NCBI GenBank assembly: GCA_947377275.1
Contig: CANCFV010000014.1
Location: 1-48,101 of the forward strand
DNA: 48,101 bases
Direction: 5' to 3'
Source of the DNA: Burkholderiales bacterium
GTDB lineage: Bacteria > Pseudomonadota > Gammaproteobacteria > Burkholderiales > Burkholderiaceae_C
The position numbers and the translations under genes were made by a program. A model generated the notes under the pieces. The model saw nothing but the letters and a program-made list of their open reading frames with translations. It had not been told where the DNA came from and did not search any database. Of the stretch, positions 3,963 to 27,082 are shown piece after piece. Numbering within the stretch: the first letter of the stretch is position 1; each line of letters opens with the position of its first letter.

Positions 3963-5528
3963 ATGAAACATGTAAGCCTCAAAGCGCAGTTGACGCTGGC
4001 CTTTGGTGCCCTGGTGGTGCTGGTGATGGTGGTGAGCGTATTGGGGCTGAGCAGCCTGAGTCGGGCGAACGATGGGTTCGCGGGCTATGTCGCTGGGCCA
4101 GCTCAGCGCGGGTACCTGGCCACTGAGGTACGCACCATGGCCAACCTCCGCGCCATTGGTGTGCGCGACATGGTGCTGAGCAAGACAGACGCTGATCGCG
4201 TCACGGCCAAGGCCATGGCGGTGCAGGCCCAACAGAACATCGAAGCCCGCCTCAAGGCGCTCAAAGACGCCGTGGCAAACGCTGCAGATGCGAGTGAGCA
4301 AGACCGCAGCTTGGTGGCCGCCATCGACAAGGTCGAGACCCAATACAAGCCGGTTGCCCTGGCCATTGTTGCACTGGGTGCCAGCGGGCAGAACGATGCC
4401 GCCACCGACAAGATGAACAACGAGTGCCGGCCTTTGCTGGTGTCGCTGATCACAGCGACCAATGCGTACATCGCCTACAGCCAGGAGCAAGCCAAAGCCA
4501 ATGTGCAAGCTGCGGCCTCGGCCTACGTCACCCAGCGCTCAGTGTTGCTGGGCATCAGCTTGTTTGCCGCTGGTCTGGCGGCCTTCCTGGGGTGGCGCAT
4601 CACCGCCCGACTGTCTGCCGCACTGGGCGCTGAGCCCGCAGACCTGAGCGACGCCGCGCAACGTGTGGCCGAGGGCGACCTCAGCGCGGTCCAGGGTGCG
4701 CACCAAGCCCCGGCCGGCAGCGTGTTGGCATCGATGGGGGCCATGCAGCGTCAGCTCTTGGGCCTGATCGGCCAAGTCCGCACCTCGGCAGACAGCATCG
4801 CCACGGCCAGTGCAGAAATTGCGCAGGGCAACAACGACTTGTCAGGCCGCACCGAGCAGCAGGCATCGGCCTTGCAGCAAACCGCGGCATCGATGGAGCA
4901 ACTCAGCTCGACGGTCAAACAAAACGCCGACAGCGCGCGTCAGGCCAACCAACTGGCCCAAGGTGCCAGCGCGGTGGCCATCAAGGGCGGTGACGTGGTG
5001 GGCCAGGTGGTTGAGACCATGAAGGGCATCAACGACAGCTCTAAAAAGATCGCCGACATCATCGGTGTGATCGATGGCATCGCCTTTCAGACCAACATCT
5101 TGGCGCTGAACGCGGCCGTGGAGGCCGCTCGTGCCGGTGAGCAAGGCCGCGGCTTTGCCGTGGTGGCCTCAGAGGTGCGCAGCCTGGCAGGCCGCTCGGC
5201 CGACGCCGCCAAAGAGATCAAGGCCTTGATCGGCGCCAGCGTGGAGCGCGTCGAACAGGGCACTGCTTTGGTCGACCAGGCCGGTGAAACGATGGCCGAG
5301 GTTGTCGGCTCGATCCGCCGCGTGACCGACATCATGGGCGAGATCAGCGCAGCCAGCTTGGAGCAGAGCAACGGGGTGAGCCAGGTCGGTCAAGCCGTCA
5401 CCCAAATGGACCAGGCGACACAGCAAAATGCCGCCCTGGTCGAAGAAAGCGCCGCCGCAGCCGAGAGCATGAAAGTGCAGGCACAACAGCTGGTTCGCGC
5501 GGTGTCGGTGTTCAAAGTGGCTCAGTAG
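3963..5528 (+). CDS. Methyl-accepting chemotaxis protein, Tsr-like
   Basis: 521 residues, an inner-membrane chemoreceptor. A first membrane helix (about 8-30, [16 protein letters not shown]) leads to a periplasmic four-helix-bundle domain (about 31-190, 4HB_MCP-like), a second helix (about 190-212, [19 protein letters not shown]), a HAMP-type segment and the cytoplasmic signalling domain. The hairpin tip is intact ([21 protein letters not shown]), as are flanking methylation-type helices rich in Gln/Glu. It ends at FKVAQ and has no obvious C-terminal NWETF CheR-docking pentapeptide. The ATG at 3963 directly precedes the first membrane helix; the 90 residues upstream in frame are not coding-like. 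The ligand is unknown. Confidence 0.92.
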
Positions 5529-5565
5529 CCCAGCTGAGCCAGATCGCAAGCCACGGCCAGCGCAG

Positions 5566-5585
5566 GTGGGGCGCTGCGCCCCCAC
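5566..5585 (+). terminator. GC-rich hairpin after the chemoreceptor gene
   Basis: GTGGGGCGC and GCGCCCCCAC form a strong stem with one extra C in the right arm and almost no loop, about 40 bp past the stop. There is no T-run after it, so it may be a weak or Rho-assisted end, or simply a dyad upstream of the nirB control region. Confidence 0.3.
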
Positions 5586-5596
5586 GGTGCGCACAT

Positions 5597-5611
5597 GCAC
5601 GGCGTTGGTGC
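5597..5611 (+). promoter_or_regulatory. NtrC-like binding dyad upstream of nirB
   Basis: The sequence reads GCAC-N7-GTGC. It matches the NtrC consensus GCAC(YA)NNN(TR)GTGC at both outer half sites and at the TR pair; only the YA pair differs (GG). It is centred about 84 bp before the predicted start site of the sigma54 promoter below. That is somewhat close but usable for an enhancer-type activator. Nitrogen-limitation control by NtrC is typical for assimilatory nitrate operons such as Klebsiella nasF. Confidence 0.5.
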
Positions 5612-5661
5612 CACGGCGCACTTGGCGAGCCCGCCCACCCGTGTCTGAGGCCCCTTTCCTT

Positions 5662-5678
5662 GGGCACGAAACCTGCAT
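5662..5678 (+). promoter_or_regulatory. Sigma54 (-24/-12) promoter of the nirB operon
   Basis: GGGCACG-AAAC-CTGCAT contains the invariant GG (5663-5664) and GC (5675-5676) separated by exactly ten bases. It differs from TGGCACG-N4-TTGCA only at the first base of each box. Transcription would start near 5688, immediately ahead of the first RNA hairpin at 5690, leaving a leader of about 148 nt. The fit of promoter, NtrC-like site and leader hairpins supports the call. Confidence 0.68.
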
Positions 5679-5689
5679 GCCTCCACGTC

Positions 5690-5742
5690 GAGGCAACGAC
5701 GCTTCCCTAGAAACACCAGAACCGCTCCGCCAACGAAGGTGG
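5690..5742 (+). promoter_or_regulatory. Two-hairpin ANTAR (NasR) target RNA in the nirB leader
   Basis: Hairpin 1 is GAGGC-AACGAC-GCTTC (5690-5705) and hairpin 2 is CCGCC-AACGAA-GGTGG (5727-5742). Each has a five-pair stem with one G.U pair and a six-base loop. Both loops have A at position 1 and G at position 4, the hallmark of ANTAR-bound RNA, and they share AACGA. The spacer is 21 bases. A competing fold for hairpin 1 (CGTCG-AGGCAA-CGACG, 5686-5701) exists, but it would begin before the predicted start site. The NIT-ANTAR protein at 15872-17197 is the obvious ligand. Confidence 0.65.
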
Positions 5743-5799
5743 GCTCGGCAGTTGCTCCGGCAACACCTGATCCGACCGTTCTGATCCGTTGGTTTGTGT
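5730..5799 (+). terminator. Candidate leader terminator competing with ANTAR hairpin 2
   Basis: CCAACG (5730-5735), which forms the 3' arm base and loop start of hairpin 2, can pair with CGTTGG (5787-5792), which is followed by TTTGTGT. Inside, AGGT (5737-5740) can pair with ACCT (5765-5768) around GTTGC-TCCG-GCAAC (5751-5764), a very stable C(UCCG)G tetraloop hairpin. These pairings exclude hairpin 2, as an attenuator would require. The T-run is imperfect and the structure is branched, so the exact terminator is uncertain. A further stem, CCGCAGC-ACCTTG-GCTGCGG (5800-5819), sits just before the nirB ribosome site. Confidence 0.4.
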
Positions 5800-5835
5800 C
5801 CGCAGCACCTTGGCTGCGGGGGAAGTGGAGCTCAA

Positions 5836-8364
5836 ATGAAGATCGTCGTCGTTGGCCATGGCATGGTTGGCCACAAGTTCCTGGAAAGCCTGGCTGAAAC
5901 AGGCTTGAGTGACGTGCAGGTCACGGTGCTATGCGAAGAGCCACGCCCCGCTTACGATCGCGTCCACCTGTCTGAATTCTTCTCGGGCAAAACGGCCGAC
6001 GACCTCTCTCTGGTCGAGCCCGGCTTCTTCGAACGCACCGGCATCACCTTGCGCCTGGCGGCCCGCGCGGCCAGCATCGACCGCGGTGCGCGCACCGTCA
6101 CCACCCAAGCCGGAGAGGTCGTGCCTTACGACAAGCTGGTGCTGGCCACGGGCTCCAATCCGTTTGTGCCGCCGGTGCCGGGGCGTGATCGCCCCAACTG
6201 CTTTGTCTACCGCACCATCGAAGACTTGGAGGCCATGACGGCCGCGGGTGCCAAGTCCAAAAGTGGCGTCGTGGTGGGTGGCGGGCTTCTCGGTTTGGAG
6301 TGCGCCAAAGCCTTGAGGGACATGGGTCTGGACACGCATGTGGTCGAGTTTGCGCCGCGCCTGATGGCGGTGCAGGTTGATGAAGGCGGTGGCCGCGTGC
6401 TGCGCCACAAGATCGAAGAGCTGGGCCTGCACGTGCACACCCAGCGCAACACGGTCGAGATCGTCGACGGCGCCACGGCCCGCCACCGCATGGTCTTCAC
6501 CGATGGCAGCCACCTTGAAACCGACATGATCGTGTTCTCGGCCGGCATTCGCCCGCGTGACGAGCTGGCCCGGGCGCATGCGCTGGCCGTGGGCGCGCGC
6601 GGTGGCATCGCCATCGACAGCCAATGCCGCACCAGCGACCACGACATCTACGCCATTGGCGAGTGCGCGGCCTGGAACGACCAGACCTTTGGCCTGGTGG
6701 CCCCGGGCTACGACATGGCCCGCGTGGTGGCCAAGCACATCGCGGGCGACACCAGCGCGGTGTTTGCCGGCGCCGACATGAGCACCAAGCTCAAGCTGAT
6801 GGGCGTGGACGTGGCCAGCATCGGCGATGCGCAAGGCAAGACGCCGCACAGCCGCGCCTACCAGTATGTGGACGAGGTCAAGCAGGTCTACAAAAAGATC
6901 GTGGTCAGCGATGACGGCAAGCAGTTGCTGGGCGCGGTGCTGGTCGGCAATGCCGATGAATACGGCACCTTGCTGCAAATGGCCCTCAACGGCATCACCT
7001 TGCCCGAGTCGCCCGAGTTCTTGATTTTGCCCAGCAGCGACGGCCAGGCCAAGCCTGGCCTGGGCGTGGACGCCTTGCCCGACAGCGCCCAGATCTGTTC
7101 GTGCAACAACGTCAGCAAAGGCCAGATTTGCGCCGCCGTGTGCGAGGGCGCAACCGACATCGCCAAGCTCAAGGCCTGCACCAAAGCGGGCGCCACCTGT
7201 GGGGGCTGCGTGCCCCTGGTCACCCAGGTGATGAAGGCCGAGATGAAGAAGCAAGGCTTGGCGGTGAACAACCACCTGTGCGAGCACTTTGCGTACTCAC
7301 GCCAAGAGATCTACCACCTGGTGCGCGTGGGCCAGATCAAGACCTTTGACGAACTGCTGGCCAAACACGGCAAGGGCCTGGGCTGCGACATCTGCAAGCC
7401 CACGGCCGCCAGCGTGCTGGCTTCGGTGTGGAACGAGTTCGTGCTCAAGCAGGACCTGGCCAGCCTGCAAGACAGCAACGACTACTACCTGGGCAACATC
7501 CAGAAAGACGGCAGCTATTCGGTCGTGCCCCGCATGCCCGGTGGCGAGGTCACGCCCGATGGCCTGATCGCCGTGGGCACCGTCGCCAAGAAGTACGGCC
7601 TGTACACCAAGGTCACGGGCGGCGCCCGGGTGGACATGTTCGGTGCGCGGCTGGAGCAACTGCCCTTGATCTGGGAAGAGCTGATCGCCGCAGGCTTCGA
7701 GTCGGGCCACGCTTATGGCAAGAGCCTGCGCACCGTCAAGAGCTGCGTTGGCAGCACCTGGTGCCGCTATGGCGTGGGCGACTCGGTGGGCTTGGCGGTG
7801 GAGCTGGAGAACCGCTACAAAGGCCTGCGCGCCCCGCACAAGATCAAGTTTGGCGTCTCGGGCTGCACCCGAGAATGCGCTGAGGCCCAGGGCAAAGACA
7901 TCGGCATCATCGCCACCGAAAAGGGCTGGAACCTGTACGTGTGCGGCAACGGCGGCATGAAGCCTCGCCATGCCGAGTTGTTCGCCTCTGACCTCAACAA
8001 GGAAGAGCTGATCCGGCTGATCGACCGCGTGTTGATGTTCTACGTGCGCACGGCCGACCGCCTGCAGCGCACCAGCACCTGGCGCGACAACCTCGAAGGC
8101 GGCTTGCCTTACCTGCAAGACGTCATCTTGAACGACAAGCTGGGCCTCAACGCTGAGCTGGAAGCGCAGATGCAGCACGTGGTGGACACCTACCAGTGCG
8201 AGTGGAAGACCGCCGTGACCACGCCCGCCGTGCGCCAGCGCTTCCGCAGCTTCGTCAACAGCGACAAGGTCGACGAGCACATCGTGTTTGTGGAAGAGCG
8301 TGGCCAGATCCGCCCAGCCACGGCGCAGGAGCGACCCGCTGTGGCCGCCGAGCCCGCGGCTTGA
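5836..8364 (+). CDS. nirB: Assimilatory nitrite reductase (NADH), large subunit NirB
   Basis: Reduces nitrite to ammonium with electrons from NADH via FAD, [2Fe-2S], [4Fe-4S] and siroheme, in the cytoplasm. The protein has 842 residues, normal for NirB. The N-terminal FAD/NAD-binding reductase part (about 1-400) begins MKIVVVGHGMVGH. A BFD-type [2Fe-2S] domain has Cys421, 423, 455 and 458 (CSCNN...CGGC), followed by a second BFD-like part ending GLGCDICKP. The sulfite/nitrite reductase half carries the cluster and siroheme cysteines 637, 643, 677 and 681 (CVGSTWC, CTREC). The ATG at 5836 has GGAAGTGGAG just before it; the 14 extra residues of the longer frame would come from the leader. It is first in an operon with nirD, nasA, the transporter and a FAD reductase. 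Confidence 0.97.
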   Translation: MKIVVVGHGMVGHKFLESLAETGLSDVQVTVLCEEPRPAYDRVHLSEFFSGKTADDLSLVEPGFFERTGITLRLAARAASIDRGARTVTTQAGEVVPYDKLVLATGSNPFVPPVPGRDRPNCFVYRTIEDLEAMTAAGAKSKSGVVVGGGLLGLECAKALRDMGLDTHVVEFAPRLMAVQVDEGGGRVLRHKIEELGLHVHTQRNTVEIVDGATARHRMVFTDGSHLETDMIVFSAGIRPRDELARAHALAVGARGGIAIDSQCRTSDHDIYAIGECAAWNDQTFGLVAPGYDMARVVAKHIAGDTSAVFAGADMSTKLKLMGVDVASIGDAQGKTPHSRAYQYVDEVKQVYKKIVVSDDGKQLLGAVLVGNADEYGTLLQMALNGITLPESPEFLILPSSDGQAKPGLGVDALPDSAQICSCNNVSKGQICAAVCEGATDIAKLKACTKAGATCGGCVPLVTQVMKAEMKKQGLAVNNHLCEHFAYSRQEIYHLVRVGQIKTFDELLAKHGKGLGCDICKPTAASVLASVWNEFVLKQDLASLQDSNDYYLGNIQKDGSYSVVPRMPGGEVTPDGLIAVGTVAKKYGLYTKVTGGARVDMFGARLEQLPLIWEELIAAGFESGHAYGKSLRTVKSCVGSTWCRYGVGDSVGLAVELENRYKGLRAPHKIKFGVSGCTRECAEAQGKDIGIIATEKGWNLYVCGNGGMKPRHAELFASDLNKEELIRLIDRVLMFYVRTADRLQRTSTWRDNLEGGLPYLQDVILNDKLGLNAELEAQMQHVVDTYQCEWKTAVTTPAVRQRFRSFVNSDKVDEHIVFVEERGQIRPATAQERPAVAAEPAA

Positions 8365-8463: not shown

Positions 8464-8802
8464 ATGAGCACCGACACCCTGATCTGGACCGCCGTCTGCG
8501 CGTTTGACGACATCTTGCCCAACACCGGCGTGTGCGCCTTGGTGGAAGGGCGCCACGTGGCCATCTTCCGCGTGGGCCCTGATGCCTTCTACGCCATCGA
8601 CAACGTCGACCCCAAGTCGCAAGCCAGCGTGCTGTCGCGCGGTTTGATCGGCAGTTTGGGCGATCGCACCGTGGTGGCATCGCCCTTGTACAAGCAGCAC
8701 TACGACCTGCGCACCGGCGCCTGCGTGGAAGACGCGGCCTTGTCTGTTCGGGCCCATGAGGTGGCCGTGCGAGATGGCCGCGTGTGGGTGAGCCTCACAT
8801 GA
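8464..8802 (+). CDS. nirD: Nitrite reductase (NADH), small subunit NirD
   Basis: A 112-residue Rieske-fold protein that partners NirB. As in other NirD proteins, the Rieske cluster ligands are missing: the position of the second CxxH box reads SPLYKQHYDL, so it has a structural rather than electron-carrying role. The ATG at 8464 gives MSTDTLIWTAVC. The 99 bp between nirB and nirD hold nothing I could assign. The stop overlaps the nasA start (ATGA), so translation of nasA is probably coupled to it. Confidence 0.94.
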   Translation: MSTDTLIWTAVCAFDDILPNTGVCALVEGRHVAIFRVGPDAFYAIDNVDPKSQASVLSRGLIGSLGDRTVVASPLYKQHYDLRTGACVEDAALSVRAHEVAVRDGRVWVSLT

Positions 8803-11627
8803 GGATCCCGATCGAGCCGGTGCGCAGCGCGTTCACCCGCTCCACCTGCCCCTATTGCGGCACGGGCTGTGGCGTGATCATCGAGTCTGTCGCTGGACAG
8901 GTGGTGCAAGTGCAGGGCGACCCCGATCACCCCGCCAACCACGGCCGCTTGTGCACCAAGGGCAGCACCTTGCACCTGACGGCCGCGGCCAGCGTGACGC
9001 AGCAGTCGCGCTTGCTGCAGCCCCAGCAGCGCTTGCAGCGCGGAGGCACGCTCTCGCCGGTGTCGTGGGACTCGGCCATGGCCTTGTGCGTCGACCGCTT
9101 CACCGACGTCATCCAACGCCACGGCCCCGATGCGGTGGGCTTTTACGGCTCGGGCCAGTTGCTGACCGAGGACTACTACGTGCTCAACAAGCTGGTCAAA
9201 GGCCTGATCGGCACCAACAACCTCGACACCAACTCGCGCCTGTGCATGAGCAGCGCCGTGGCTGGCTACAAGGCCACGCTGGGCGTCGATGCGCCGCCGG
9301 CTTGCTACGACGACTTCCAGCACGCGCAGACCCTGTTCATCGTGGGCGCCAACACCGCGTGGGCGCACCCCATCTTGTTCCGCCGCATCGAAGACGCGCG
9401 GCAGGCCAACCCGCAGCAAAAGCTGATCGTGGCCGACCCCCGGCGCACCGAAACCGCTGAGGTGGCCGACCTCTACCTGCCGATCCGCCCCGGCACCGAC
9501 GTGGCGCTGTTCCATGGCCTGTTGCACGTGATGCTGCAAGAGGGCTTGACCGATGCGGACTACATCGCGCGTCACACCCAGGGCTTTGAGGCTTTGCAGG
9601 CCTTGGTGAGCGAGCACACGCCGGCCGCCGTGGCCGAGACCTGTGGCATCCCCGTTGCGGACCTGGTGCAGGCCGCGCGCTGGATGGGTGGCCACACGCC
9701 CACCTTGTCCTTGTATTGCCAGGGCCTGAACCAAAGCAGCCGTGGCACCGACAAGAACGCCGCGCTCATCAACCTGCACCTGGCCACCGGCCAGATCGGG
9801 CGTGCCGGTGCAGGGCCGTTTTCTTTGACGGGCCAGCCCAACGCCATGGGCGGTCGCGAGGTGGGCGGCATGGCCAACCTGCTCAGCGCCCACCGCGACC
9901 TGGGCAACGCCCAGCACCGCGAAGAGGTGGCGGCCTTGTGGGGCGTGCCTTCGGTGCCCGCGCAGAGCGGCAAAACGGCCGTGGAGATGTTCGAGGCCGC
10001 CGCGCGCGGTGAGATCAAAGCCTTGTGGATTGCCTGCACCAATCCCGCCCAGTCCCTGCCCGACCAGAACCTGGTGCGCCGCGCCCTGGCGCGTGCCGAG
10101 TTCGTGGTGGTGCAAGAGGCCTTCGGCACCACGGCCACTTGCGCTCACGCCGATGTGCTCTTGCCCGCCACCACCTGGGGCGAGAAAGACGGCACCGTGA
10201 CCAACAGCGAGCGCCGCATCACCCGCGTGCGCCCCGCAGTGGCAGCGCCCGGCCAGGCGCGCCACGACTGGGCCATCTTCACCGACCTGGGCCGCCGCCT
10301 GGAAGCCCGCTTGCCCGAGCGCGTGGCCGCTTACCGCGTTGGCACCTCGACCTTGTTCCCCTACACCTGCGCTGAAAGCGTGTGGCTGGAGCACCGCGAA
10401 TCGACCCGCGGGCGAGACCTCGACATCACCGGCTTGAGCTACGCCTTGCTCGAGACCGCTGGCCCGCAGCAATGGCCCTTCCCTGAAGGCGCCACGCAAG
10501 GGCAAGCGCGCTTGTACGCCGATGGCCGTTTTGCCACGCCCGATGGCCGCGCGCGCTTCGCCGCCGTGCCCTACGTGCCGCTGCAAGAGCCCGTGGACGT
10601 CGAACACCCCTTCAGCCTGAACACCGGCCGCTTGCGCGACCAGTGGCATGGCATGAGCCGCACGGGCACGCTGGGCCGCCTGTTCGGCCACGTCAGCGAG
10701 CCATCGGTAGACCTGCACCCGCAAGACATGGCCCGCTTGAGCCTGCTGGACGGCGACCTGGTGCGCGTGCGCTCGCGCCGTGGGCAGGTCTTGATCCCGG
10801 CCGTGGCCTCGGGCGCGCAAGCGGCAGGTCAGGTCCACATCGCCATGCATTGGGGCAGTGAGTTCGTCGGCGGGCGCGACGCGCAAGGCCAGCCCTTGTT
10901 GGGCGTCAACGCCCTCACGCAGAGTGCCTTCTGCCCCACCTCCAAGCAGCCCGAACTCAAGCATGCGGCGGTGGCCATCGAGCCAGTCAAGCCCGCGTGG
11001 CAGCTGGTGGCCATGGCCTGGTTTCCCGCGGGCAATGCGCTGGTCGTGCGCGAGGCGGTGGCCTTGATGGGCCGCACCTTTGCCTTTTTCAGCTGCGTGC
11101 CCTTTGGGCGCGAGCCCGATGCGCAAGGGCGCGTGGGCGTGCAATTGCGCTTGGCCAACGACCAGCCTGCGTCGCCTGAGCAGCTGGAGCTGCTGGCCGA
11201 ATGGCTGGGCGTGAACGGCGACGCCGTTTTGCGTTACGAGGACACGGCCCATGGGCATCGCCGCGCCATCCGCATCGCCAGCGATGGCGACGTGCAACGC
11301 GTTGAAGCCTTCATGGTGGCGGGCGATGTGCGATCGGCCGCCTGGCTGCGTCCACTCTTGCAAGACGATGCCCCTGTGCAGGCCATGGGCGCCATGCTGC
11401 TGTCACCGGGGGCGCGTGCGCCGGGCCAGGTGGCCTCGCGCGGCAAGCAAGTCTGCACCTGCTTCAACGTCACCGACACCCAGATCCAAGCCTGCCTGCC
11501 GCGCTGCACCGGCAGCGAGGCCCAGCGTTTGAGCGAGTTGCAAGGCGAGCTGCGCTGCGGCACCAATTGCGGCTCGTGCGTGCCGGCTTTGCGCAAATTG
11601 ATCCGAGAAACGCCCGTCGAGGCGTAA
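8799..11627 (+). CDS. nasA: Assimilatory nitrate reductase, molybdopterin catalytic subunit NasA
   Basis: Reduces nitrate to nitrite in the cytoplasm. It has 942 residues starting at the ATGA overlap with nirD. The N-terminal [4Fe-4S] cysteines are 17, 20, 24 and 52 (CPYCGTGC...RLCTKG). Cys149 in NSRLCMSS is the expected molybdenum ligand. Bis-MGD binding regions follow, then a molydopterin dinucleotide-binding domain and, at the C-terminus, a BFD-type [2Fe-2S] domain (Cys886, 888, 924, 927; CTCFN...CGSC), as in Klebsiella NasA. No twin-arginine signal is present, as expected for the assimilatory enzyme rather than NapA. The electron donor is probably the FAD reductase at the operon end. The 887-codon antisense frame is a composition artefact. 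Confidence 0.96.
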   Translation: MRIPIEPVRSAFTRSTCPYCGTGCGVIIESVAGQVVQVQGDPDHPANHGRLCTKGSTLHLTAAASVTQQSRLLQPQQRLQRGGTLSPVSWDSAMALCVDRFTDVIQRHGPDAVGFYGSGQLLTEDYYVLNKLVKGLIGTNNLDTNSRLCMSSAVAGYKATLGVDAPPACYDDFQHAQTLFIVGANTAWAHPILFRRIEDARQANPQQKLIVADPRRTETAEVADLYLPIRPGTDVALFHGLLHVMLQEGLTDADYIARHTQGFEALQALVSEHTPAAVAETCGIPVADLVQAARWMGGHTPTLSLYCQGLNQSSRGTDKNAALINLHLATGQIGRAGAGPFSLTGQPNAMGGREVGGMANLLSAHRDLGNAQHREEVAALWGVPSVPAQSGKTAVEMFEAAARGEIKALWIACTNPAQSLPDQNLVRRALARAEFVVVQEAFGTTATCAHADVLLPATTWGEKDGTVTNSERRITRVRPAVAAPGQARHDWAIFTDLGRRLEARLPERVAAYRVGTSTLFPYTCAESVWLEHRESTRGRDLDITGLSYALLETAGPQQWPFPEGATQGQARLYADGRFATPDGRARFAAVPYVPLQEPVDVEHPFSLNTGRLRDQWHGMSRTGTLGRLFGHVSEPSVDLHPQDMARLSLLDGDLVRVRSRRGQVLIPAVASGAQAAGQVHIAMHWGSEFVGGRDAQGQPLLGVNALTQSAFCPTSKQPELKHAAVAIEPVKPAWQLVAMAWFPAGNALVVREAVALMGRTFAFFSCVPFGREPDAQGRVGVQLRLANDQPASPEQLELLAEWLGVNGDAVLRYEDTAHGHRRAIRIASDGDVQRVEAFMVAGDVRSAAWLRPLLQDDAPVQAMGAMLLSPGARAPGQVASRGKQVCTCFNVTDTQIQACLPRCTGSEAQRLSELQGELRCGTNCGSCVPALRKLIRETPVEA

Positions 11628-11652: not shown

Positions 11653-12909
11653 ATGTCCAACTTCAAAACCTTCTTGCGATCGGGGCATGCGCCCACGCTC
11701 TTCGCTTCGTTCTTGTACTTTGACTTCACCTTTGCCATCTGGGTGCTCAACGGCGCCATGGCGCCTTTCATCAGCGAGTCCTTCCACCTGACGCCGGCTC
11801 AAAAGGGCTTCATGGTGTCGGTGCCCATCATCGCGGGCGCCTTGATGCGCTTCCCGCTGGGTTTGCTGTCTCAGTACATCGGGCGCAAAAGCGCGGCCAT
11901 GGTCGAGATGGCGCTGATCATCCTGGCCTTGGCTTATGGCTACTTCTGTGTCGATTCGCACGACGAGGTCCTGGCCATGGGCGTGCTGCTGGGCATCGCC
12001 GGTGGCAGCTTTGGCATCGCCTTGTCACTGGGCTCTGGCTGGTTCCCAGCCAAGTACAAAGGCCTGGCCATGGGCATTGCTGGCGCGGGCAACAGTGGCA
12101 CCGTGCTGGCCGTGCTGTTTGCGCCGCCCTTGGCCATGAAGTACGGCTGGCAGGCCGTGTATGGCCTGGCCGCCTTCACCATGCTCTTGCCCATGGCCGT
12201 CATGGCCGTCTTCGCCAAGGAGCCGCCTGACACCGAACACCAGAGCTTTCGCGAGCACATCGCCTGTCTGTTCGAAAAAGACGGCTGGGCCTTCAGCCTG
12301 ATCTACGTGATCACCTTCGGCGGCTTCATCGGCCTGGCCAACTTCTTGCCCACTTACTTTTACGACCAGTTCAAGGTCACCAAGGTCGAGGCTGGCCAGC
12401 TCACCATGCTGGCCACCTTGATGGGCTCGGCCACGCGCGTGGTGGGGGGCTGGCTGTCTGACCGCTGGGGGGGCATCAACACCTTGTCGGCGGTGCTGGT
12501 GTTCGTGGTGATCACCTTGGTGATCTGCGGCACGATGGGCGACAACCTCGCCCTCACCACCTTGCTGTTCATGCTGTGTTTTGCCTCGCTGGGCGCAGGC
12601 AATGGCGCTTTGTTCCAGCTGGTGCCTTTGCGCTGGCCTTTGACCACCGCGGTGGCGGGCTCGATGATCGGTGAAATCGGCGCCTTGGGCGGTGGCTTCA
12701 TCCCCAATGCCATGGGGCAGTCCAAGCAACACTTCGGCACCTACTTCTATGGTTTCGTGGCCTTTGCCGCGCTGGGCGTGGCCGTGCTGCTGATGATGCG
12801 CGTCATGCAGATCCGGTGGACACGGACGTGGGCCGAAAAGGGCGGCCGTGCGCGCACCACGGGCAGCACCGCCGCCACGTTCAAGCAAACAGCGGCCACC
12901 CGCCACTGA
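11653..12909 (+). CDS. Nitrate/nitrite transporter, MFS NarK/NasA family
   Basis: A 418-residue, about 12-helix major facilitator protein. It carries the two glycine-rich nitrate signature regions of the NarK family (GIAGAGNSGTVLAVLFAP and GAGNGALFQLVPL) and Arg residues in the matching helices (MRFPLGLLSQYIGRKSA and ATRVVGGWLSDRWGG). It most likely imports nitrate for NasA. The gene is 25 bp behind nasA and 13 bp ahead of the FAD reductase, so it is inside the nas operon. The last 30 residues are a basic, Thr/Ala-rich tail (RARTTGSTAATFKQTAATRH). Direction (uptake or nitrite exchange) cannot be read from the sequence; position favours nitrate uptake. Confidence 0.93.
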   Translation: MSNFKTFLRSGHAPTLFASFLYFDFTFAIWVLNGAMAPFISESFHLTPAQKGFMVSVPIIAGALMRFPLGLLSQYIGRKSAAMVEMALIILALAYGYFCVDSHDEVLAMGVLLGIAGGSFGIALSLGSGWFPAKYKGLAMGIAGAGNSGTVLAVLFAPPLAMKYGWQAVYGLAAFTMLLPMAVMAVFAKEPPDTEHQSFREHIACLFEKDGWAFSLIYVITFGGFIGLANFLPTYFYDQFKVTKVEAGQLTMLATLMGSATRVVGGWLSDRWGGINTLSAVLVFVVITLVICGTMGDNLALTTLLFMLCFASLGAGNGALFQLVPLRWPLTTAVAGSMIGEIGALGGGFIPNAMGQSKQHFGTYFYGFVAFAALGVAVLLMMRVMQIRWTRTWAEKGGRARTTGSTAATFKQTAATRH

Positions 12910-12922
12910 GGCCAAGAAGCCC

Positions 12923-14191
12923 ATGAAGCCCATGAAGCCACGCAAAAAGCTCGTCGTCATCGGCAACGGCATGGCCGGTGTCCGCACCGTGGAAGAGCTG
13001 CTCAAGATCGCACCAGACCTCTACGACATCACGGTCTTCGGTGCCGAGCCTCATCCCAACTACAACCGCATCATGCTGTCGCCGGTGCTGGCCGGTGAGC
13101 AAACGCTCGACGAGATCGTGCTCAACCGCGTCGAGTGGTATGCCGAACACGGCATCACCTTGCACATGGGCAAGGCCGTGACCGAGGTCGACCGCAGCCG
13201 GCGCCTGGTCACCGCGGCGGACGGCACGCAGGCCAGCTACGACCGGCTGCTGCTGGCCACGGGCTCGCAGCCTTTTGTGCTGCCCGTGCCGGGGCACGAC
13301 CTGGAGGGCGTGATCAGCTACCGCGATATCGCCGACACCCAGGCCATGATCGAGGCCACGCAAAAGCACCGTCATGCGGTTGTGATCGGTGGTGGCTTGC
13401 TGGGCCTGGAAGCGGCCAACGGCCTGAACGTGCGTGGCATGAGCGTGACGGTGGTGCACATCGGCGAGTGGTTGCTTGAGCGACAGCTTGACCGCGAGGC
13501 GGCCCAGTTGCTGAAGACCACCTTGGCCGAGCGCGGCTTGCAGTTCGCGCTGCACGCCCACACCGCGGCCTGTCTGGACGATGGTCAGGGTCGCGTGCGT
13601 GCCGTGGCGCTCAAAGACGGACGCGAGATCCCCGCCGACCTCGTGGTCATGGCCGCCGGCATTCGCCCAGATGTGCGCCTGGCCACGGCCATGGACCTGC
13701 AGTGCAACCGCGGCGTGCTGGTCAACGACACCCTGCAAAGCCTCACCGACCCGCGCATCTACGCCGTGGGCGAGTGCGCCAACCACCGTGGCACCGCCTA
13801 TGGCCTGGTGGCCCCGCTGTACGAGCAAGCGGTGGTGTGCGCCAACCACCTGGCCGACTTCGGCATTGGGCGTTACCTGGGCAGCCAGGTCAGCACCAAG
13901 CTCAAGGTCACGGGCATCGATTTGTTTTCAGCCGGGGATTTCATGGGCGCGGAGGGCACCGACCAGATCGTGTTGCGAGACCCTGTTCGCGGCGTCTACA
14001 AAAAGCTGGTGCTGCGTGGCGATGTGCTGGTGGGCGCCTGCCTGTATGGCGACATCCACGATGGCAGTTGGTACTTTGACCTGATCAAGCAGGCGCAATC
14101 GGTGGGCCCGCAGCGCGACACCTTGGTCTTCGGGGCCGATCCGGTCAGCGACGCGGCAGGAACACCAGCCAGTACACCAGCAGCAGGTTGA
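12923..14191 (+). CDS. FAD/NAD(P)-dependent reductase, probable electron donor to NasA
   Basis: 422 residues with the same fold as the first 400 residues of NirB: an FAD GxGxxG (VVIGNGMAGVRTVEE), ATGSQPF, an NAD site (AVVIGGGLLGLEAANGL) and YAVGECANH. Unlike NirB and Klebsiella NasC, it has no BFD cysteine set (no CxC...CxxC), so it is a flavoprotein only. As last gene of nirB-nirD-nasA-transporter, it most likely passes electrons from NADH to the [2Fe-2S] tail of NasA. The ATG at 12923 is followed by another at 12932 (MKPMKP), either of which may start. The 3' end overlaps the convergent phosphatase-kinase gene by 47 bp, and the final residues (about 405-422) are Ala/Thr/Pro-rich and may be poorly conserved. 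Confidence 0.87.
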   Translation: MKPMKPRKKLVVIGNGMAGVRTVEELLKIAPDLYDITVFGAEPHPNYNRIMLSPVLAGEQTLDEIVLNRVEWYAEHGITLHMGKAVTEVDRSRRLVTAADGTQASYDRLLLATGSQPFVLPVPGHDLEGVISYRDIADTQAMIEATQKHRHAVVIGGGLLGLEAANGLNVRGMSVTVVHIGEWLLERQLDREAAQLLKTTLAERGLQFALHAHTAACLDDGQGRVRAVALKDGREIPADLVVMAAGIRPDVRLATAMDLQCNRGVLVNDTLQSLTDPRIYAVGECANHRGTAYGLVAPLYEQAVVCANHLADFGIGRYLGSQVSTKLKVTGIDLFSAGDFMGAEGTDQIVLRDPVRGVYKKLVLRGDVLVGACLYGDIHDGSWYFDLIKQAQSVGPQRDTLVFGADPVSDAAGTPASTPAAG

Positions 14192-15875
14192 ACAACATCG
14201 CCACGGCGAAGGCGATCTTCCAAACCGCGGCTGGGTCGCGCTCCAACAGCGAAGAAGCCCGCGCCGGCGCCAGGGGGCGTGAGGCCCCGCGCTCCAGCGC
14301 CAGGTGCAGCTCTTCGGCCGTTTCAAAGCGCGCTTTGGGATCGCGTGCCACGGCCTTGAGCACGATGTGGTCCAGCCAAATGGGCACGTCAGGCCGCGCG
14401 CGCGAAGGCGGTGTCGGGTCACGGCGGTAACGGCTGACTTGGTACGGCTCGATCTCGCCATACGGCAGCCGCCCGGTCAGCCACACATACAGCGTCACGC
14501 CAAGGGCATACAGGTCAGACTGGGCGGTGGCACGGCCGACCTCAGGGTCGTCTGACCACTGCTCGGGGTTCATGTAGCTGGGCGTGCCCGCGTGCAAAAC
14601 GCGCAGCTGCTCCGGCTCTTTGCCCGACAAGGCCACGCCCAGGTCAAGGATGCGCCACTGCCCATCGTCGCCGCGGTGCACGTTGTCGGGTTTGATGTCG
14701 CGGTGGACCACGCCGTGCTGGTGCAAGCGACCGAGCGTGCGGGCCAGGCTGGCGCTGGCAGCGACCACCTCGGGCACCGTGAACGTGGCCTTGCGCTCCA
14801 GCATGTTGGCCAGCGACTCGCCGGCCAGCCAGTCTGACAGCGTGTAAAACGCCGTGGGGTTGTCGGGCTCGGTGACGTGCAGCAGCCCTTCGGCGTTGCG
14901 CTCAGACACCCGCGAGCCCAACCACGCTTCATGGGCCAGCATCTCGCGTTCGTGGGCATCGCTGGCCCTCGACTCGTGCAGCGTCTTGAGCGCATGCACC
15001 GTGCCATGCAAGAGGCAGCGCACCCGGTACACGCGGTGGATGCCGTTGCTGAACACGGGCTGTTCGACCTGATAGTGGTCGATCACGTCGCCCTCTTTGA
15101 GCCGGGGAGGTACGGGCAACTGGCGCCCACGCCGGCTCATGTCGGCCAGGCTCACCAGGTCCAGGCCCTTGACCCGCAGCACCACCGCGGTGGCGTTGTC
15201 ACGTCCGCCCGAGGCCAGTGCCTTGCTGACCAGGGCCTGGCTGGCCTCTTGCGCCGTGCCTTGCGTGGCCAGTTCATGCAGCACCGATTGCTTGAGGTGG
15301 CCGTGCACGCCATCGCTGGTCAACACCAGGGTGTCGCCAATGCGCAGGTCGCCGTCGGTGTAGTCCACGCGCAAGGCATCGTCCAGCCCCATGGCCCGTG
15401 TCAGGCCGTTTTGGAACTCGGTGCGACCCATCACGTGGTCCTGCGTGAGCAGGGTGCATTCGCCATCGCGGATCAGGTAAGCGCGGCTGTCGCCCACGTG
15501 CGCCAGCGTGAAGCCGTGCGCGCGCAGCACCAAGGCGGTCAGCGTGCAGGTGGCCGAGCCCGCGGCACGTGCGTCCATGCTTTGGCGGCGGCGGTTGTGA
15601 TCGACCAGCCAGGCGTTGTGCGCCGAGATCACGCGGTCGAGGGCCACCGTGGGGTCCCAGGTGGCCGGCGTGGCGTACCAGTCGTTCACGAGGGTCATGA
15701 CCGAGGTTTGCGCCGCCTCCTTGCCCAGCCCGCCGGTGGACACGCCATCGGCCAGCGCCGCGATCACCCCCCAAGCGGAAGCCTGTGGATCGGGTTGACG
15801 CACCTGCGCGAAGTCTTCGTTGTCCGAACGGGGCCCGCGCTCGCTGCTCAGTCCCGTGTCGACGCTGAAGCTCAT
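14145..15875 (-). CDS. PP2C phosphatase-Ser/Thr protein kinase fusion with C-terminal membrane anchor
   Basis: 576 residues. An N-terminal PP2C domain (about 1-235) holds the metal-binding motifs SDNED (17-21), ADGVSTGG (Asp43), HVGDSRAY, LTSDG and GRDNA. A Hanks-type kinase domain (about 270-525) has Lys297 (VHALK), HRDIKPDN (Asp393 catalytic) and Asp411 in DLG rather than DFG. Activation-segment GTPSYMNPEQ follows. The glycine-rich loop is weak. A single C-terminal helix (about 552-572) would tether it to the inner membrane with both enzymes in the cytoplasm. It follows nasR with an ATGA overlap, so it is probably co-transcribed and may tie nitrate assimilation to reversible phosphorylation. 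Its targets are unknown. Confidence 0.9.
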   Translation of the reverse strand: MSFSVDTGLSSERGPRSDNEDFAQVRQPDPQASAWGVIAALADGVSTGGLGKEAAQTSVMTLVNDWYATPATWDPTVALDRVISAHNAWLVDHNRRRQSMDARAAGSATCTLTALVLRAHGFTLAHVGDSRAYLIRDGECTLLTQDHVMGRTEFQNGLTRAMGLDDALRVDYTDGDLRIGDTLVLTSDGVHGHLKQSVLHELATQGTAQEASQALVSKALASGGRDNATAVVLRVKGLDLVSLADMSRRGRQLPVPPRLKEGDVIDHYQVEQPVFSNGIHRVYRVRCLLHGTVHALKTLHESRASDAHEREMLAHEAWLGSRVSERNAEGLLHVTEPDNPTAFYTLSDWLAGESLANMLERKATFTVPEVVAASASLARTLGRLHQHGVVHRDIKPDNVHRGDDGQWRILDLGVALSGKEPEQLRVLHAGTPSYMNPEQWSDDPEVGRATAQSDLYALGVTLYVWLTGRLPYGEIEPYQVSRYRRDPTPPSRARPDVPIWLDHIVLKAVARDPKARFETAEELHLALERGASRPLAPARASSLLERDPAAVWKIAFAVAMLFNLLLVYWLVFLPRR

Positions 15876-17197
15876 GGTTGGCGCGTGCCGCCTTGCCCCG
15901 CGAAGAAGGCGTCTGGCAAGGCCAGCGTGGCCTCAGCCACGTCCAGCAGGCGCTTGTTGTGGTCCATCGCCGCTTTTTGCAGCGAGCGGAAGGCGGCCTC
16001 TTCGCTCATGCCCAGGCGCGACATCAAGGCCCCCTTGGCACGTTCAATGACCTTGCGCTCGTGCAAGGCGCGGCGCGCGGCGTCCAGCTCGACTTCCATG
16101 CTCGACAGCCTGGCCGATTGCGTTTCGAGCAGGGCCATCAGCGAGGACATGGCCGCTTGGTCGCGCGCCTGAGAGGCCTTGGCCGCGGCAGGTGCTTCGC
16201 CCATGGCGCTCAGCACGGGCGCGGCCTCGGGCGCCACGCCGGCTTCGAAAAAGCGCGCCACGGCGTGCGTGTGCGGCGGTGGGTTGTCGCGCAGCTTTTG
16301 CAGCAGCCCTTCCGAGTCCTGCAGGTCTTGTTGCGCGGCGCGCCACTGCGCCTGGCAGGACTGGCGCAGGCCCTGCACCAGCTCGGCCTGCACGGCGTGC
16401 ATTTCGGTGATGCGTTCGCTGGCGACATCGAACCAAGTCTCGCTCACGGCCGTGTCGAGCGCGGCGCCGGGGCGGGCCGTGCACAGCGCGCGGCGCAGGC
16501 GCTCCAGTTGCGCCACCTTGGGCGTGAGTTGGTGCTGTTGCCAGCGCGCGCGCAAGGCCGCATCGGCGAACTCTTCGAACACGGCCAGGCTGCGCTCTTG
16601 CGCGTCGATCAGGTGCACCACGCGTTGTTGTTCGGCCTCCTCGTTGTGGCCACTGGCGAACAACTGGGCGCCCACGGCCCGTTCTTGTCCCGCGGCCTCT
16701 TTGCCTTGCAGCAGGTGCACCAAGGCCACCAGCAGGCGTGAGATGCCGGGGTGTTGGGCGGCATCGGCCACGTGGAAGGTCAGCTCCAGCAAGCCGGCGA
16801 TCAACTGGCTGAAGGCGGCCACGGCCTCGTGGGCGCTCAGGCCGTGCTGGTCCACGCGGGCGCGAAGCTCGCTCAGCGCATCGAGGTCGAGCAGGGCCCA
16901 AGCCAACAACGACAAGGTGCGCGGCGTGGCGCCTTGGTCAGGCTGAAGTTGCTGCGCAAAGCGTTCACGCAGTGCGGCTTCCAGCGCCAGGGCTTGGACC
17001 ATGGCGCTTTGCCTTTCTGCCCCGAACCGCGTGCCACCCGAAGCCAGGTGGATGCTGCAGGCGCCGCGCTCGCTTTGCAGCGCATGGATCAACTCGGCGA
17101 CCACGCTCACCAGCTCCACCCGATGGCTCAGGTGACCGATGGCATCGATGTCGAGCTGCTTGGCGCGCAGAACGAGGGCGGAGAGGGACAGGGTCAT
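15872..17197 (-). CDS. nasR: NasR-type nitrate-responsive antiterminator (NIT + ANTAR)
   Basis: 441 residues. The long N-terminal part (about 20-290) is all-alpha with the NIT start LIHALQSERGACSIHLASGG, the nitrate/nitrite-sensing domain. The C-terminal about 65 residues are an ANTAR domain (ERKVIERAKGALMSRLGMSE, then AAFRSLQKAAMD), which binds paired hexaloop hairpins. In Klebsiella NasR this arrangement prevents leader termination of nasF when nitrate is bound, and the nirB leader at 5690-5742 carries such hairpins. I start at the ATG at 17197, two bases after the carboxypeptidase stop; an in-frame ATG at 17230 would overlap that gene by 31 bp. It ends in an ATGA overlap with the phosphatase-kinase. 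Confidence 0.88.
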   Translation of the reverse strand: MTLSLSALVLRAKQLDIDAIGHLSHRVELVSVVAELIHALQSERGACSIHLASGGTRFGAERQSAMVQALALEAALRERFAQQLQPDQGATPRTLSLLAWALLDLDALSELRARVDQHGLSAHEAVAAFSQLIAGLLELTFHVADAAQHPGISRLLVALVHLLQGKEAAGQERAVGAQLFASGHNEEAEQQRVVHLIDAQERSLAVFEEFADAALRARWQQHQLTPKVAQLERLRRALCTARPGAALDTAVSETWFDVASERITEMHAVQAELVQGLRQSCQAQWRAAQQDLQDSEGLLQKLRDNPPPHTHAVARFFEAGVAPEAAPVLSAMGEAPAAAKASQARDQAAMSSLMALLETQSARLSSMEVELDAARRALHERKVIERAKGALMSRLGMSEEAAFRSLQKAAMDHNKRLLDVAEATLALPDAFFAGQGGTRQP

Positions 17198-17199
17198 GG

Positions 17200-18348
17200 T
17201 CAGGCGAACAGCGATTTGATGCGCTGCCACAGCTTCTTGAAGAATCCGGCTTCTTCGACCGCTTCGAGCGCCACCACGGGTTGCTCGGCGTAGGGCTGCC
17301 CATCCAGGGTCAGCACGACCTTGCCCAGCACCGCGCCCTGGGCGATGGGCCCGGTCAGGTCAGGGTTGAGCTTGACTTCGGACTTGATGTTGGCGCCTTG
17401 GCCACGCGGCACGGTGGCCACGACGTCTTGCGCCAAGCCCACCGAGACTTCATCGACCTTGCCAAAGCGCACAGCGCCCTTGGCCAGGGCGACACCCGCT
17501 TGCAAAGGCTTGACGTTCTCGAAGGTGGCAAAGCCCCAGTTGAACAGCGCGCGGGTCTGGTCGGCACGCGCTTGCATGCTGCTGGTGCCCATCACCACTG
17601 AGATCAGGCGCATGCCGCTGCGCTTGCTCGACGCCACCAGGCAATAGCCCGCGTCGGCGGTGTGGCCCGTTTTCAGGCCGTCGACCGTGGGGTCGGTGTA
17701 GAGCAGGGCGTTGCGGTTGCCTTGCTTGATGCCGTTGAACTTGAATTCCTTCTCGGCGTAGATGGGGTAGTAGTCCGAGCTGTCGTGGATGATGGCGCGC
17801 GCCAGGATCGACAGGTCACGTGCCGAGGCCAGGTGCGATGGGGCGGGCAGGCCCGTGGCGTTTTCGAAGTGCGTGTTCTTCATGCCCAGGCGGGCGGCTT
17901 CGGCGTTCATGGTCGAGGCGAACGAGGTTTCGGTGCCCGCCAGGTGTTCGGCCACGGCCTTGGAGGCGTCGTTGCCGGACTGGATGATGATGCCGCGCAG
18001 GATGTCGATGACCGAGGCCGAGCTGTTGAGCGGCAGGTACATGCACGACTCGGTGCTGGAGCCTCGGCACCAGGCGTTTTCGCTCACGCGCACGGGGTCG
18101 GTGGGCTTGAGGCGACCCGACTTGAGCGCTTGCTCGACGATGTAGCTCGTCATCATCTTGGTCAACGAGGCCGGCGGCAGGGCCTGGTCGGCGTTGGACT
18201 CGGCCAGCACCTTGCCCGAGTCGAAGTCCACCAGCAGGTAGGCCTTGTTTTCCAGGGCCGGAGGAGGGTTCACGGGGGCGGCGGCCCAGGCAGAAAGGCT
18301 CAAGCTGGCAAGCAGGCTCAGGGCGGCCAGGCGGATGGGTGTGTTCAT
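17200..18348 (-). CDS. D-alanyl-D-alanine carboxypeptidase (PBP5/6 type), DacC/DacA-like
   Basis: A periplasmic serine peptidase that trims the terminal D-Ala of peptidoglycan stem peptides. 382 residues from the ATG at 18348, with a signal peptide (about 1-24, ending SAWAAAP). Active-site motifs are complete: SLTK (Ser61, Lys64), SGN (124-126) and KTG (226-228). A PBP5-type beta domain follows and the extreme C-terminus is a basic amphipathic helix (FFKKLWQRIKSLFA), which normally anchors these enzymes to the outer face of the inner membrane. Upstream in-frame ATGs at 18456 and 18393 would destroy the signal peptide. Two bases separate its stop from nasR, so read-through into nasR is likely. 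Confidence 0.92.
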   Translation of the reverse strand: MNTPIRLAALSLLASLSLSAWAAAPVNPPPALENKAYLLVDFDSGKVLAESNADQALPPASLTKMMTSYIVEQALKSGRLKPTDPVRVSENAWCRGSSTESCMYLPLNSSASVIDILRGIIIQSGNDASKAVAEHLAGTETSFASTMNAEAARLGMKNTHFENATGLPAPSHLASARDLSILARAIIHDSSDYYPIYAEKEFKFNGIKQGNRNALLYTDPTVDGLKTGHTADAGYCLVASSKRSGMRLISVVMGTSSMQARADQTRALFNWGFATFENVKPLQAGVALAKGAVRFGKVDEVSVGLAQDVVATVPRGQGANIKSEVKLNPDLTGPIAQGAVLGKVVLTLDGQPYAEQPVVALEAVEEAGFFKKLWQRIKSLFA

Positions 18349-26180: not shown

Positions 26181-26193
26181 CGTGGGCGCGCGC

Positions 26194-27081
26194 ATGAGCA
26201 TCGCCTCTTCAATGGGCAAGGTTGCCGCAGCGCGTGGGCGCGTGGGGCAAGCATCACCGGGCTTTGGCCTGGGCTTGCGCACCGCGCACTACGCCGACTT
26301 CCTGGCCGAACCACAACCGGTGGACTGGCTGGAGGTCATCTCAGACAACCACCTGGTGCCCGGCGGCAAGCCCATGCGCATGCTCGACGAGATCCGTGCG
26401 CGCTACCCCATGGCCATGCACGGCGTGGCCTTGTCCCTCGGGTCGGTCGCCGGCCCCGATGAAAACTACCTGCGCCAACTGCGGGCGCTGGCCGATCGCA
26501 TCTCGCCGCTGTGGGTCTCTGACCACCTGTGCTGGTGCGGTGTGCACGGCCGCCAATTGCACGACCTCTTGCCCCTGCCTTACACCGAGGAGGCGCTGGG
26601 CGTGGTGGTGCGCAACATCTCGCGGACCCAAGACGTGCTGGGCCGCCGCCTGGTGCTAGAGAACGTCTCGAGCTACGTGGCCTTTGCCCAGTCGCACCTC
26701 AGCGAGTGGGACTTCGTGCGCGAAGTGGCCGAGCGTGCCGATTGCCTTTTGCTGCTCGACGTGAACAACGTGTACGTCAGCAGCGTGAACCATGGGTTTG
26801 ACCCTGTGGCCTACCTCGACGCCATGCCTGTGGGCCGCGTGCAGCAGATCCACCTGGCCGGCCACACGCGCAACGACGCCTCGGGCCTCTTGATCGACAC
26901 CCACGACCAGCCTGTGCCCGACCCGGTGTGGGCCTTGTACCGTCATGCCTGTGAGCGATTCGGCCCCGTGGCCACGATGATCGAGCGCGACGACCACATC
27001 CCACCCTTGCCTGAATTGCTGGCCGAGTTGGACCAGGCCCGGGCGCTGTCGGCGCTGGCCTTGATGTGCGAGGTGGCTTGA
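26194..27081 (+). CDS. bufB: MNIO (DUF692) multinuclear iron oxidase, BufB
   Basis: 295 residues with a TIM-barrel fold. Metal-ligand motifs run in the family order: [52 protein letters not shown] and ERDDHIP. Members use two or three iron atoms and oxygen to turn peptidyl cysteines into heterocycles or related groups. Substrate here is the BufA2 precursor 13 bp upstream. The ATG at 26194 is chosen; a GTG at 26182 and an ATG at 26212 are alternatives because the first 20 residues are not conserved. One base separates it from bufC. Confidence 0.92.
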
Positions 27082-27082
27082 G

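Follow-up and report, generated by a model that had tools for sequence, protein, structure and literature searches.

Among the systems already described, one close counterpart of the leader analysed here belongs to the Klebsiella NasR-nasF system, for which the cited excerpts describe two hexaloop hairpins with A at loop position 1 and G at position 4 (PMC7496416, PMC3369931). Another is the NalA leader of Pseudomonas nirBD, in which, according to the excerpt cited, an ANTAR leader stands behind a sigma54/NtrC promoter and is served by NasT/NasS (PMC12830290). In the part of Ramesh et al. (2012) cited here, broad hits were screened for a terminator overlapping P2, and nitrite reductase is named among the predicted targets; an earlier prediction of a related leader in that work is thus possible. 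Literature searches on ANTAR or NasR together with nirB in Burkholderia or Betaproteobacteria, and on Aquabacterium together with ANTAR, returned no title on the present leaders among the matches listed. Romeo et al. (2012) and gkad1117 are the references given for the Pseudomonas NalA/NasT leader.

The window, that is, the whole stretch of DNA that was analysed, is the entire 48,101-base contig G000:C14 of a genome that is 86.9% complete with 6.2% contamination, and whose genus we took to be Aquabacterium (Burkholderiales). Its leader region contains the following features.

5575..5591, + strand: NtrC-like site TGCGCCCCCACGGTGCG, 88 nt 5' of the -24 GG
5596..5612, + strand: second NtrC-like site TGCACGGCGTTGGTGCC, holding GCAC-N7-GTGC (5597-5611)
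5663..5676, + strand: putative sigma54 -24/-12 promoter GGCACGAAACCTGC, GG-N10-GC, predicted +1 near 5688
5690..5705, + strand: HP1, ANTAR hairpin 1, GAGGC-AACGAC-GCTTC (from sequence, covariation and the hold-out model)
5726..5743, + strand: HP2, ANTAR hairpin 2, TCCGCC-AACGAA-GGTGGG (from sequence, covariation and the hold-out model)
5738..5777, + strand: candidate attenuator stem-loop using the HP2 3' arm, a weak predicted local fold (z -0.72 for the 56 bases from 5738) with no U-tract

Direct reading of the sequence bears out the first-pass annotation, which had reported GCAC-N7-GTGC, GG-N10-GC and two hexaloops: all are present where it had placed them, the loops AACGAC (HP1) and AACGAA (HP2) both having A at position 1 and G at position 4. 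The hairpins also stand, as it had claimed, in register with the predicted start, HP1 beginning at about +3. The assignment to NtrC and sigma54 is by sequence match to the consensus motifs. Rfam gave no match at the gathering threshold in the window and weak unrelated matches only within 5500-5900, so that none of its families fits the leader.

The leader is followed by these genes.

5836..8364, + strand: nirB, nitrite reductase large subunit (TIGR02374, NF011565)
8464..8802, + strand: nirD-like Rieske protein (PF13806)
8784..11627, + strand: assimilatory nitrate reductase-like molybdopterin enzyme with a C-terminal BFD [2Fe-2S] domain, below the curated NasA/NasC cut-offs
11653..12909, + strand: NarK-type nitrate/nitrite transporter-like MFS protein, below the curated cut-off
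12848..14191, + strand: NirB-like NAD(P)H reductase half (profile matches)
15872..17230, - strand: NIT-ANTAR regulator (NasR-like), the presumed reader of the leader (NIT 2.3e-47, ANTAR 1.1e-19; K. oxytoca NasR 4akk 3.6e-40)

The regulator thus lies in the same cluster, with matches to both of its domains, as had been noted at first pass. Among the 30 genomes listed with both genes placed, 20 have NasR on the strand of nirB and no more than 1.3 kb downstream of it, and 4 have it further downstream. The two genes are on opposite strands in 4 (including the window); in the last two genomes, NasR lies upstream of nirB in one and on a different contig in the other. Judging from this gene order, the leader may also control nasR in most relatives, as a positive feedback. 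A PP2C phosphatase-Ser/Thr kinase fusion (14145-15875, - strand) overlaps the NIT-ANTAR gene by 4 bases; a distant relative (27% identity over 565 aligned positions; L079 2564-4387) is found near nirB in G006, a genome without NIT-ANTAR. Elsewhere in the window, a gene for a RiPP-modifying enzyme of the MbnB/TglH/ChrH family (26182-27081, + strand) is followed by an open reading frame (27066-27569) with no Pfam match at 1e-6.

The covariance search with a two-hairpin ANTAR model that had been suggested as a check was run on the nirB leaders of relatives. A hold-out model of both hairpins (R2), built from 17 relatives with the window excluded, finds the window's leader at 39.3 bits (E 4.2e-7), the next site having 13.9 bits (E 0.12). 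A model built from 18 leaders, window included (R1), finds a single leader per genome in 37 of the genus's 42 genomes and none in the other 5; 19 of the 37 leader-bearing genomes lie outside its training set, though a few of their leaders are identical or near-identical to trained ones, and the 37 leader rows amount to 32 distinct ones. Within the window's own genome, where the leader belongs to the training set, R1 scores it at 47 bits and the next site at 19.5. When the loci were then searched, the leader was present in 37 of 38 and absent only from L029 (G006). Standard pairs occupy 95.6% of the stem cells of the 32 distinct leaders, in an alignment fitted to the model, and 19 cells have both sides changed. 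Shuffles give 7.2 such cells, with none of 500 reaching 19, and when the register is slid no more than 5 are seen. Many relatives have an additional lower stem in HP1, absent in the window (0 of 2000 flank permutations as high; 36 of the 37 leaders tested). As for the conservation of the hexaloops, on which the first-pass annotation had staked its reading, the outcome is in its favour: among relatives, the columns of the promoter, the hexaloops and the stems are kept and the others drift, with the exception of G006, which has nirB and no NasR. The promoter-hairpin arrangement upstream of nirB is thereby confirmed as real and beyond chance.

The register is equally regular. GG-N10-GC stands 66-75 nt 5' of the HP2 loop in 37 of 37 leaders, within a search range of about 48 to 98 nt, and the predicted start is followed by HP1 after a few to about 15 bases. 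Over the same 37 leaders, HP2 lies between 24 (in L024) and 165 nt from the ATG. With one distance near-constant and the other variable, the promoter and the two hairpins behave as a single module. Allowing 3 of 12 mismatches at most, an NtrC-like TGCACC-N5-GGTGCA occurs within 200 nt upstream of 37 of 37 leaders, against 4.6 in mononucleotide shuffles; the best listed site is 79-114 nt upstream in 26 of the 37, and the window has two such sites, 5575-5591 and 5596-5612.

A full-length NIT-ANTAR protein (match 3.9e-127 or better) is encoded in 37 of the 42 genomes, and these are the same 37 that carry the leader, although shared ancestry means that the 42 are not independent cases. A 38th match, in G010 (3e-11), is to the ANTAR domain alone, and the window's genome has one other, weaker ANTAR protein elsewhere, its cluster regulator being the NIT-ANTAR one. 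The nirB search covered 37 of the 42 genomes. G008, G010, G023 and G031 have no close nirB (best NirB 37-38% identity), no leader and no NIT-ANTAR; they carry ANTAR proteins in open frames of 208-657 aa, and a NasT-type system possibly replaces NIT-ANTAR there. The fifth genome, G006, has kept nirB (83%) and the sigma54 promoter, as TGGCACGCATATTGC; of HP1 there is a relic with an altered loop, AGGT-TTGATC-GCC, and HP2 is absent. A full-sensitivity model scan upstream of its nirB found no leader, and neither a NIT-ANTAR match nor an ANTAR domain was found in this genome, which is 94% complete. G006 amounts to a natural loss experiment, tying the hairpins to the regulator and separating them from the promoter. 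Across the genus, a promoter-hairpin module with covarying stems and a fixed register occurs together with the NIT-ANTAR gene.

We consider it probable that this is an NtrC/sigma54 leader whose dual hairpins would be bound by the NIT-ANTAR protein upon nitrate or nitrite, switching the nirB operon on. An NtrC-activated sigma54 promoter would make the leader RNA, the 5' end of which would fold into two hexaloop hairpins; the NIT-ANTAR protein of the cluster, sensing nitrate or nitrite, would bind both of them, and binding would let the operon of nirB, nirD, nitrate reductase and transporter be expressed when fixed nitrogen is low and nitrate is present. Hairpin binding, nitrate dependence and the sign of regulation would here follow NasR and EutV biology. 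Less firmly, an alternative stem-loop might in the off state take the HP2 arm and halt RNA polymerase without a strong U-tract, through imperfect termination, Rho-aided termination or pausing. The loops are not wholly uniform: HP2 has G4 in 36 of 36 and A1 in 29 of 36 genus leaders (L024 set aside), and G rather than A at position 1 in 7 of 36 leaders, in each hairpin, counts against this reading; the HP1 search itself required A or G at position 1 and G at position 4, and did not find L027.

The protein has changed as well. We mapped the window's regulator to 4akk and to the residues of PMC7496416, the numbering offset being derived from the named residues. It has a NIT domain and then an ANTAR domain, both of which align with 4akk; of the residues that matter for RNA binding by K. 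oxytoca NasR, R340, K347 and N373 are kept (R392, K399, N425), while W362 is replaced by Phe414 and R366 by Gln418. In the excerpts cited, W362 is said never to be Phe in NIT-ANTAR proteins, the W362F form of K. oxytoca NasR shows substantial RNA binding without nitrate, and R366A abolishes RNA binding of Klebsiella NasR (PMC7496416). An excerpt on the EutV-RNA structure has Tyr164 stacking on G4 and Arg168 contacting the RNA (PMC8934654), residues which, by their spacing, would equate with NasR W362 and R366. Phe stands at the W362 position in 32 of 120 loci with a match, some of these loci duplicating one genome. In a tree of 99 rows, one branch (SH-aLRT 100) comprises 27 rows, all of them with Gln418; position 414 is Phe in 22, Tyr in 4 and Leu in 1. 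Twenty-five of the 27 are labelled as having a nirB leader, a label assigned by genus or by a leader seen (the flank in records L132 and L133 is too short to see one). Gln at 418 recurs in two small groups outside this clade. On the RNA side, the NasR SELEX consensus has a C:G closing pair, whereas 35 of 36 genus leaders have U.G as the HP2 closing pair, which weighs against the NasR-like reading; as the window itself has C:G, the changes in protein and RNA are only loosely correlated.

Outside the genus the picture is more scattered. R1 was run over an even sample of 399 Burkholderiales genomes, of which 21 gave a site at E <= 0.1, about 40 being expected by chance; of the twenty others we kept four (G245, G391, G418, G429), with sites directly before nirB. 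A NIT-ANTAR match at E <= 1e-20 was found in 18 of these genomes besides the window's. Among the 17 non-genus loci scanned from the 18 (weak G200 was left out), a generic scan detected the sigma54-HP1-HP2 module near NasR in 5, and R1 added G418, making 6 of 17. Of the 80 named NIT-ANTAR loci, 42 gave the module in a strict scan; 79 of the 80 were also scanned as dinucleotide-shuffled copies, with 0 sites. A looser scan of 28 loci gave extra sites of mixed quality. That the module was not detected at every NIT-ANTAR locus counts against the preferred reading. So does G245: a strong leader (38.9 bits) precedes its nirB and is followed by a stem with z -4.7, yet at E <= 1e-20 the genome has no NIT-ANTAR protein and one other ANTAR protein only; either it has recently lost NIT-ANTAR or it uses another ANTAR protein.

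The commonest form outside the genus, here called classic, has an HP2 of GGAC (once CGAC)-AANGGC-GTCC located some 190-490 nt beyond nasR, and a strong stem with a U-tract comes after it; its 34 sites were hand-chosen from the strict scan, leaving out nirB-type sites, L138, L185 and the second sites in L148 and L157. In other Burkholderiales and in Rhodocyclales with NIT-ANTAR, the module precedes NMT1_2-family (nitrate-binding-protein-like) genes, cobA or another nirB: of six downstream genes tested, one was cobA and one another nirB. The remaining four matched nothing in NCBIfam at 1e-40; two of them were run against Pfam, and both belong to the NMT1_2 family. G429 has three leaders, before an NMT1_2-family gene, cobA and nirB. 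In L142 (Rhodocyclaceae, outside the Gln418 clade) a GGAC-AACGGC-GTCC hairpin stands with sigma54, which suggests that the classic form is the older one.

At first pass the locus had been likened to the logic of Klebsiella nasF. This stands for the NtrC- and sigma54-like sites, the dual ANTAR hairpins in register, the NIT-ANTAR gene of the same cluster and their shared presence and absence in the genus; it does not extend to the intrinsic terminator overlapping HP2, since no such stem with U-tract was found in the window and the genus is without the U-tract. This counts against the preferred reading, and the off switch of the window's leader stays a proposal. Terminator-like sites occur in 21 of the 37 genus leaders, against 15.0 in shuffles, and in 5 of 6 outgroup leaders; one genus leader, L073, does have a good site. 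The best T count per 8 bases after HP2 has a median of 7 in classic leaders (34 sites) and of 5 in the genus (37; Mann-Whitney test, p 5e-11, indicative given that the sequences are related). For the 56 bases that start at the HP2 3' arm, the fold z averages -4.8 in classic leaders (23 of the 34 sites) and -1.26 in the genus (36 leaders, L024 being too short), with -0.27 in a control upstream of the promoter (36 leaders). Acidovorax-type leaders (three Acidovorax, one MAG) have a strong stem (z -2.7 to -3.8), in which, by eye, GGAAC of the HP2 3' arm pairs with GUUCC, a best T count of 3-5 in 8 and no U-tract. The nirB leaders of G418, G391, G429 and G245 have none either (T 2-4 in 8), so that the absence goes with nirB, even where NasR keeps Arg (G429). 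HP2 itself is rarely formed in the free-energy ensemble of the whole leader (mean probability 0.04, 37 leaders), which again speaks against the preferred reading; it would need protein or co-transcriptional folding.

A partner for the HP2 5' arm may be part of an alternative fold. GCGGAGG or GCGGGGG, complementary to the arm CCTCCGC, lies 63-71 nt after HP2 in 7 of 8 nirB leaders from other genera and in L027 (p 0.035 or less for each of these eight against shuffles). Most Aquabacterium leaders are without it, and within the genus such pairing is not above shuffles, with p < 0.05 in 2 of 36 leaders (L027 and the window, 0.045); the window has GTGGAGC as a match to its arm GCTCCGC, located 81 nt beyond HP2 where the Shine-Dalgarno site is (p 0.045, one of 44 tested). 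GCGGAGG is seen 64-67 nt after HP2 in L134, L135, L136, L146, L027 and L250, with an ATG soon after in L027 and L250 and a GTG in the others; anti-HP2 pairing and a short leader peptide are both possible roles.

One might speculate, and we do so tentatively, that the NIT-ANTAR clade of Aquabacterium, Acidovorax and their kin combines an altered RNA-binding face (R366 to Gln in 27 of 27, W362 to Phe in 22 of 27) with an altered RNA target (HP2 closed by U.G, some G1 loops) and no intrinsic terminator, and would control nirB through an output new for NasR, either a U-less attenuator or translation. The translational version taken by itself, in which HP2 would act as an antisense to the region of the nirB start and NasR would free the ribosome site by holding HP2, we regard as unlikely. 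In its favour, the genus leaders have no U-tract terminators, HP2 of L024 ends 24 nt before the ATG, and translational ANTAR RNAs exist in actinobacteria, according to the excerpt cited (PMC8164766). The HP2 apex pairs with nirB codons 3-7 at a mean of 12.1 of 13 positions over 18 distinct combinations, with 12 of 13 in the window (5729-5741 against 5844-5856) and up to 13 of 13 in relatives, and 1 of 262 background gene starts pairs equally well or better with the consensus HP2 (p 0.008). However, this pairing was noticed after the fact, its two sides do not covary (permutation p 0.48), and ten leaders compared with gene starts gave p 0.008 to 0.37, the window 0.09 and at a different site. 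Moreover, in NasR-less relatives with the nirB start placed (n=11, including leader-bearing G245, one further misplaced start being set aside), 9-11 of 13 positions of nirB already fit the HP2 consensus, so that the match comes mainly from the conservation of these codons. When HP2 is forced, the openness of the Shine-Dalgarno site goes from 0.42 to 0.44 on average (13 of 37 leaders more open, 7 less); opening of this site by HP2 was rejected for want of a consistent effect over the 37 leaders.

It is similarly improbable that the clade is partly uncoupled from nitrate by the Phe at the NasR W362 position, leaving the leader near-constitutive or differently cued. Phe414 does align with the very residue whose change to Phe left K. 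oxytoca NasR with substantial RNA binding in the absence of nitrate (PMC7496416, in the excerpt cited). Yet the clade also includes four Tyr (nirB-type L084, L137, L139, L140) and a Leu (L131), all accompanied by nirB leaders; the NIT domain, too, is conserved, and a single residue does not settle the coupling to nitrate. A reading of the inverted repeats as operator sites in the DNA, or as palindromes that arose by chance, is hardly credible as an alternative to RNA hairpins: genomes of this kind do have many short, GC-rich inverted repeats, but these sit at a fixed spacing downstream of the sigma54 promoter, covary, keep G4 in the HP2 hexaloops and are lost together with the RNA-binding regulator. 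An RNA leader read by the NIT-ANTAR protein thus remains the preferred reading. On this reading, one-component nitrate antitermination reaches almost all of a betaproteobacterial genus, and the natural protein and RNA variants bear on ANTAR specificity and nitrate coupling at residues that have been mutated in Klebsiella NasR. The data also suggest that such leaders would escape any search in which the pair of hairpins must be followed by a terminator.

Compared with known systems, it is well supported that the kind of switch is a known one and that, in this group, the usual stop signal is missing and the protein is altered at key positions. With Klebsiella oxytoca nasF/NasR, as described in the excerpts cited, the locus shares a NIT-ANTAR regulator, a pair of A1/G4 hexaloop hairpins and a nitrate assimilation operon; it differs in having nirB first, no intrinsic terminator found and Phe/Gln at W362/R366, the leaders being likened by published description rather than by alignment. 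The nirB-first order that had been singled out at first pass is indeed present, but it is not new, as the excerpt on Pseudomonas describes nirB-first ANTAR leaders with NasT behind sigma54/NtrC promoters (PMC12830290). The NalA leader thus shares nirB first, the sigma54/NtrC promoter and the ANTAR leader; it differs in its two-protein NasS-NasT sensor, in place of a one-component NIT-ANTAR protein, and in the transcription-blocking hairpin described there. EutV-type dual-hairpin RNAs, in the part of Ramesh et al. (2012) cited, have the same two-hairpin recognition element and differ in sensor, genes and terminator. Close as well are the classic leaders of Variovorax, Azoarcus, Thauera, Polaromonas and others, which have the same sigma54-HP1-HP2 module and NIT-ANTAR protein, and which differ from those of the genus in their GGAC-AANGGC-GTCC HP2, the 3' arm of which opens a strong stem with a U-tract.
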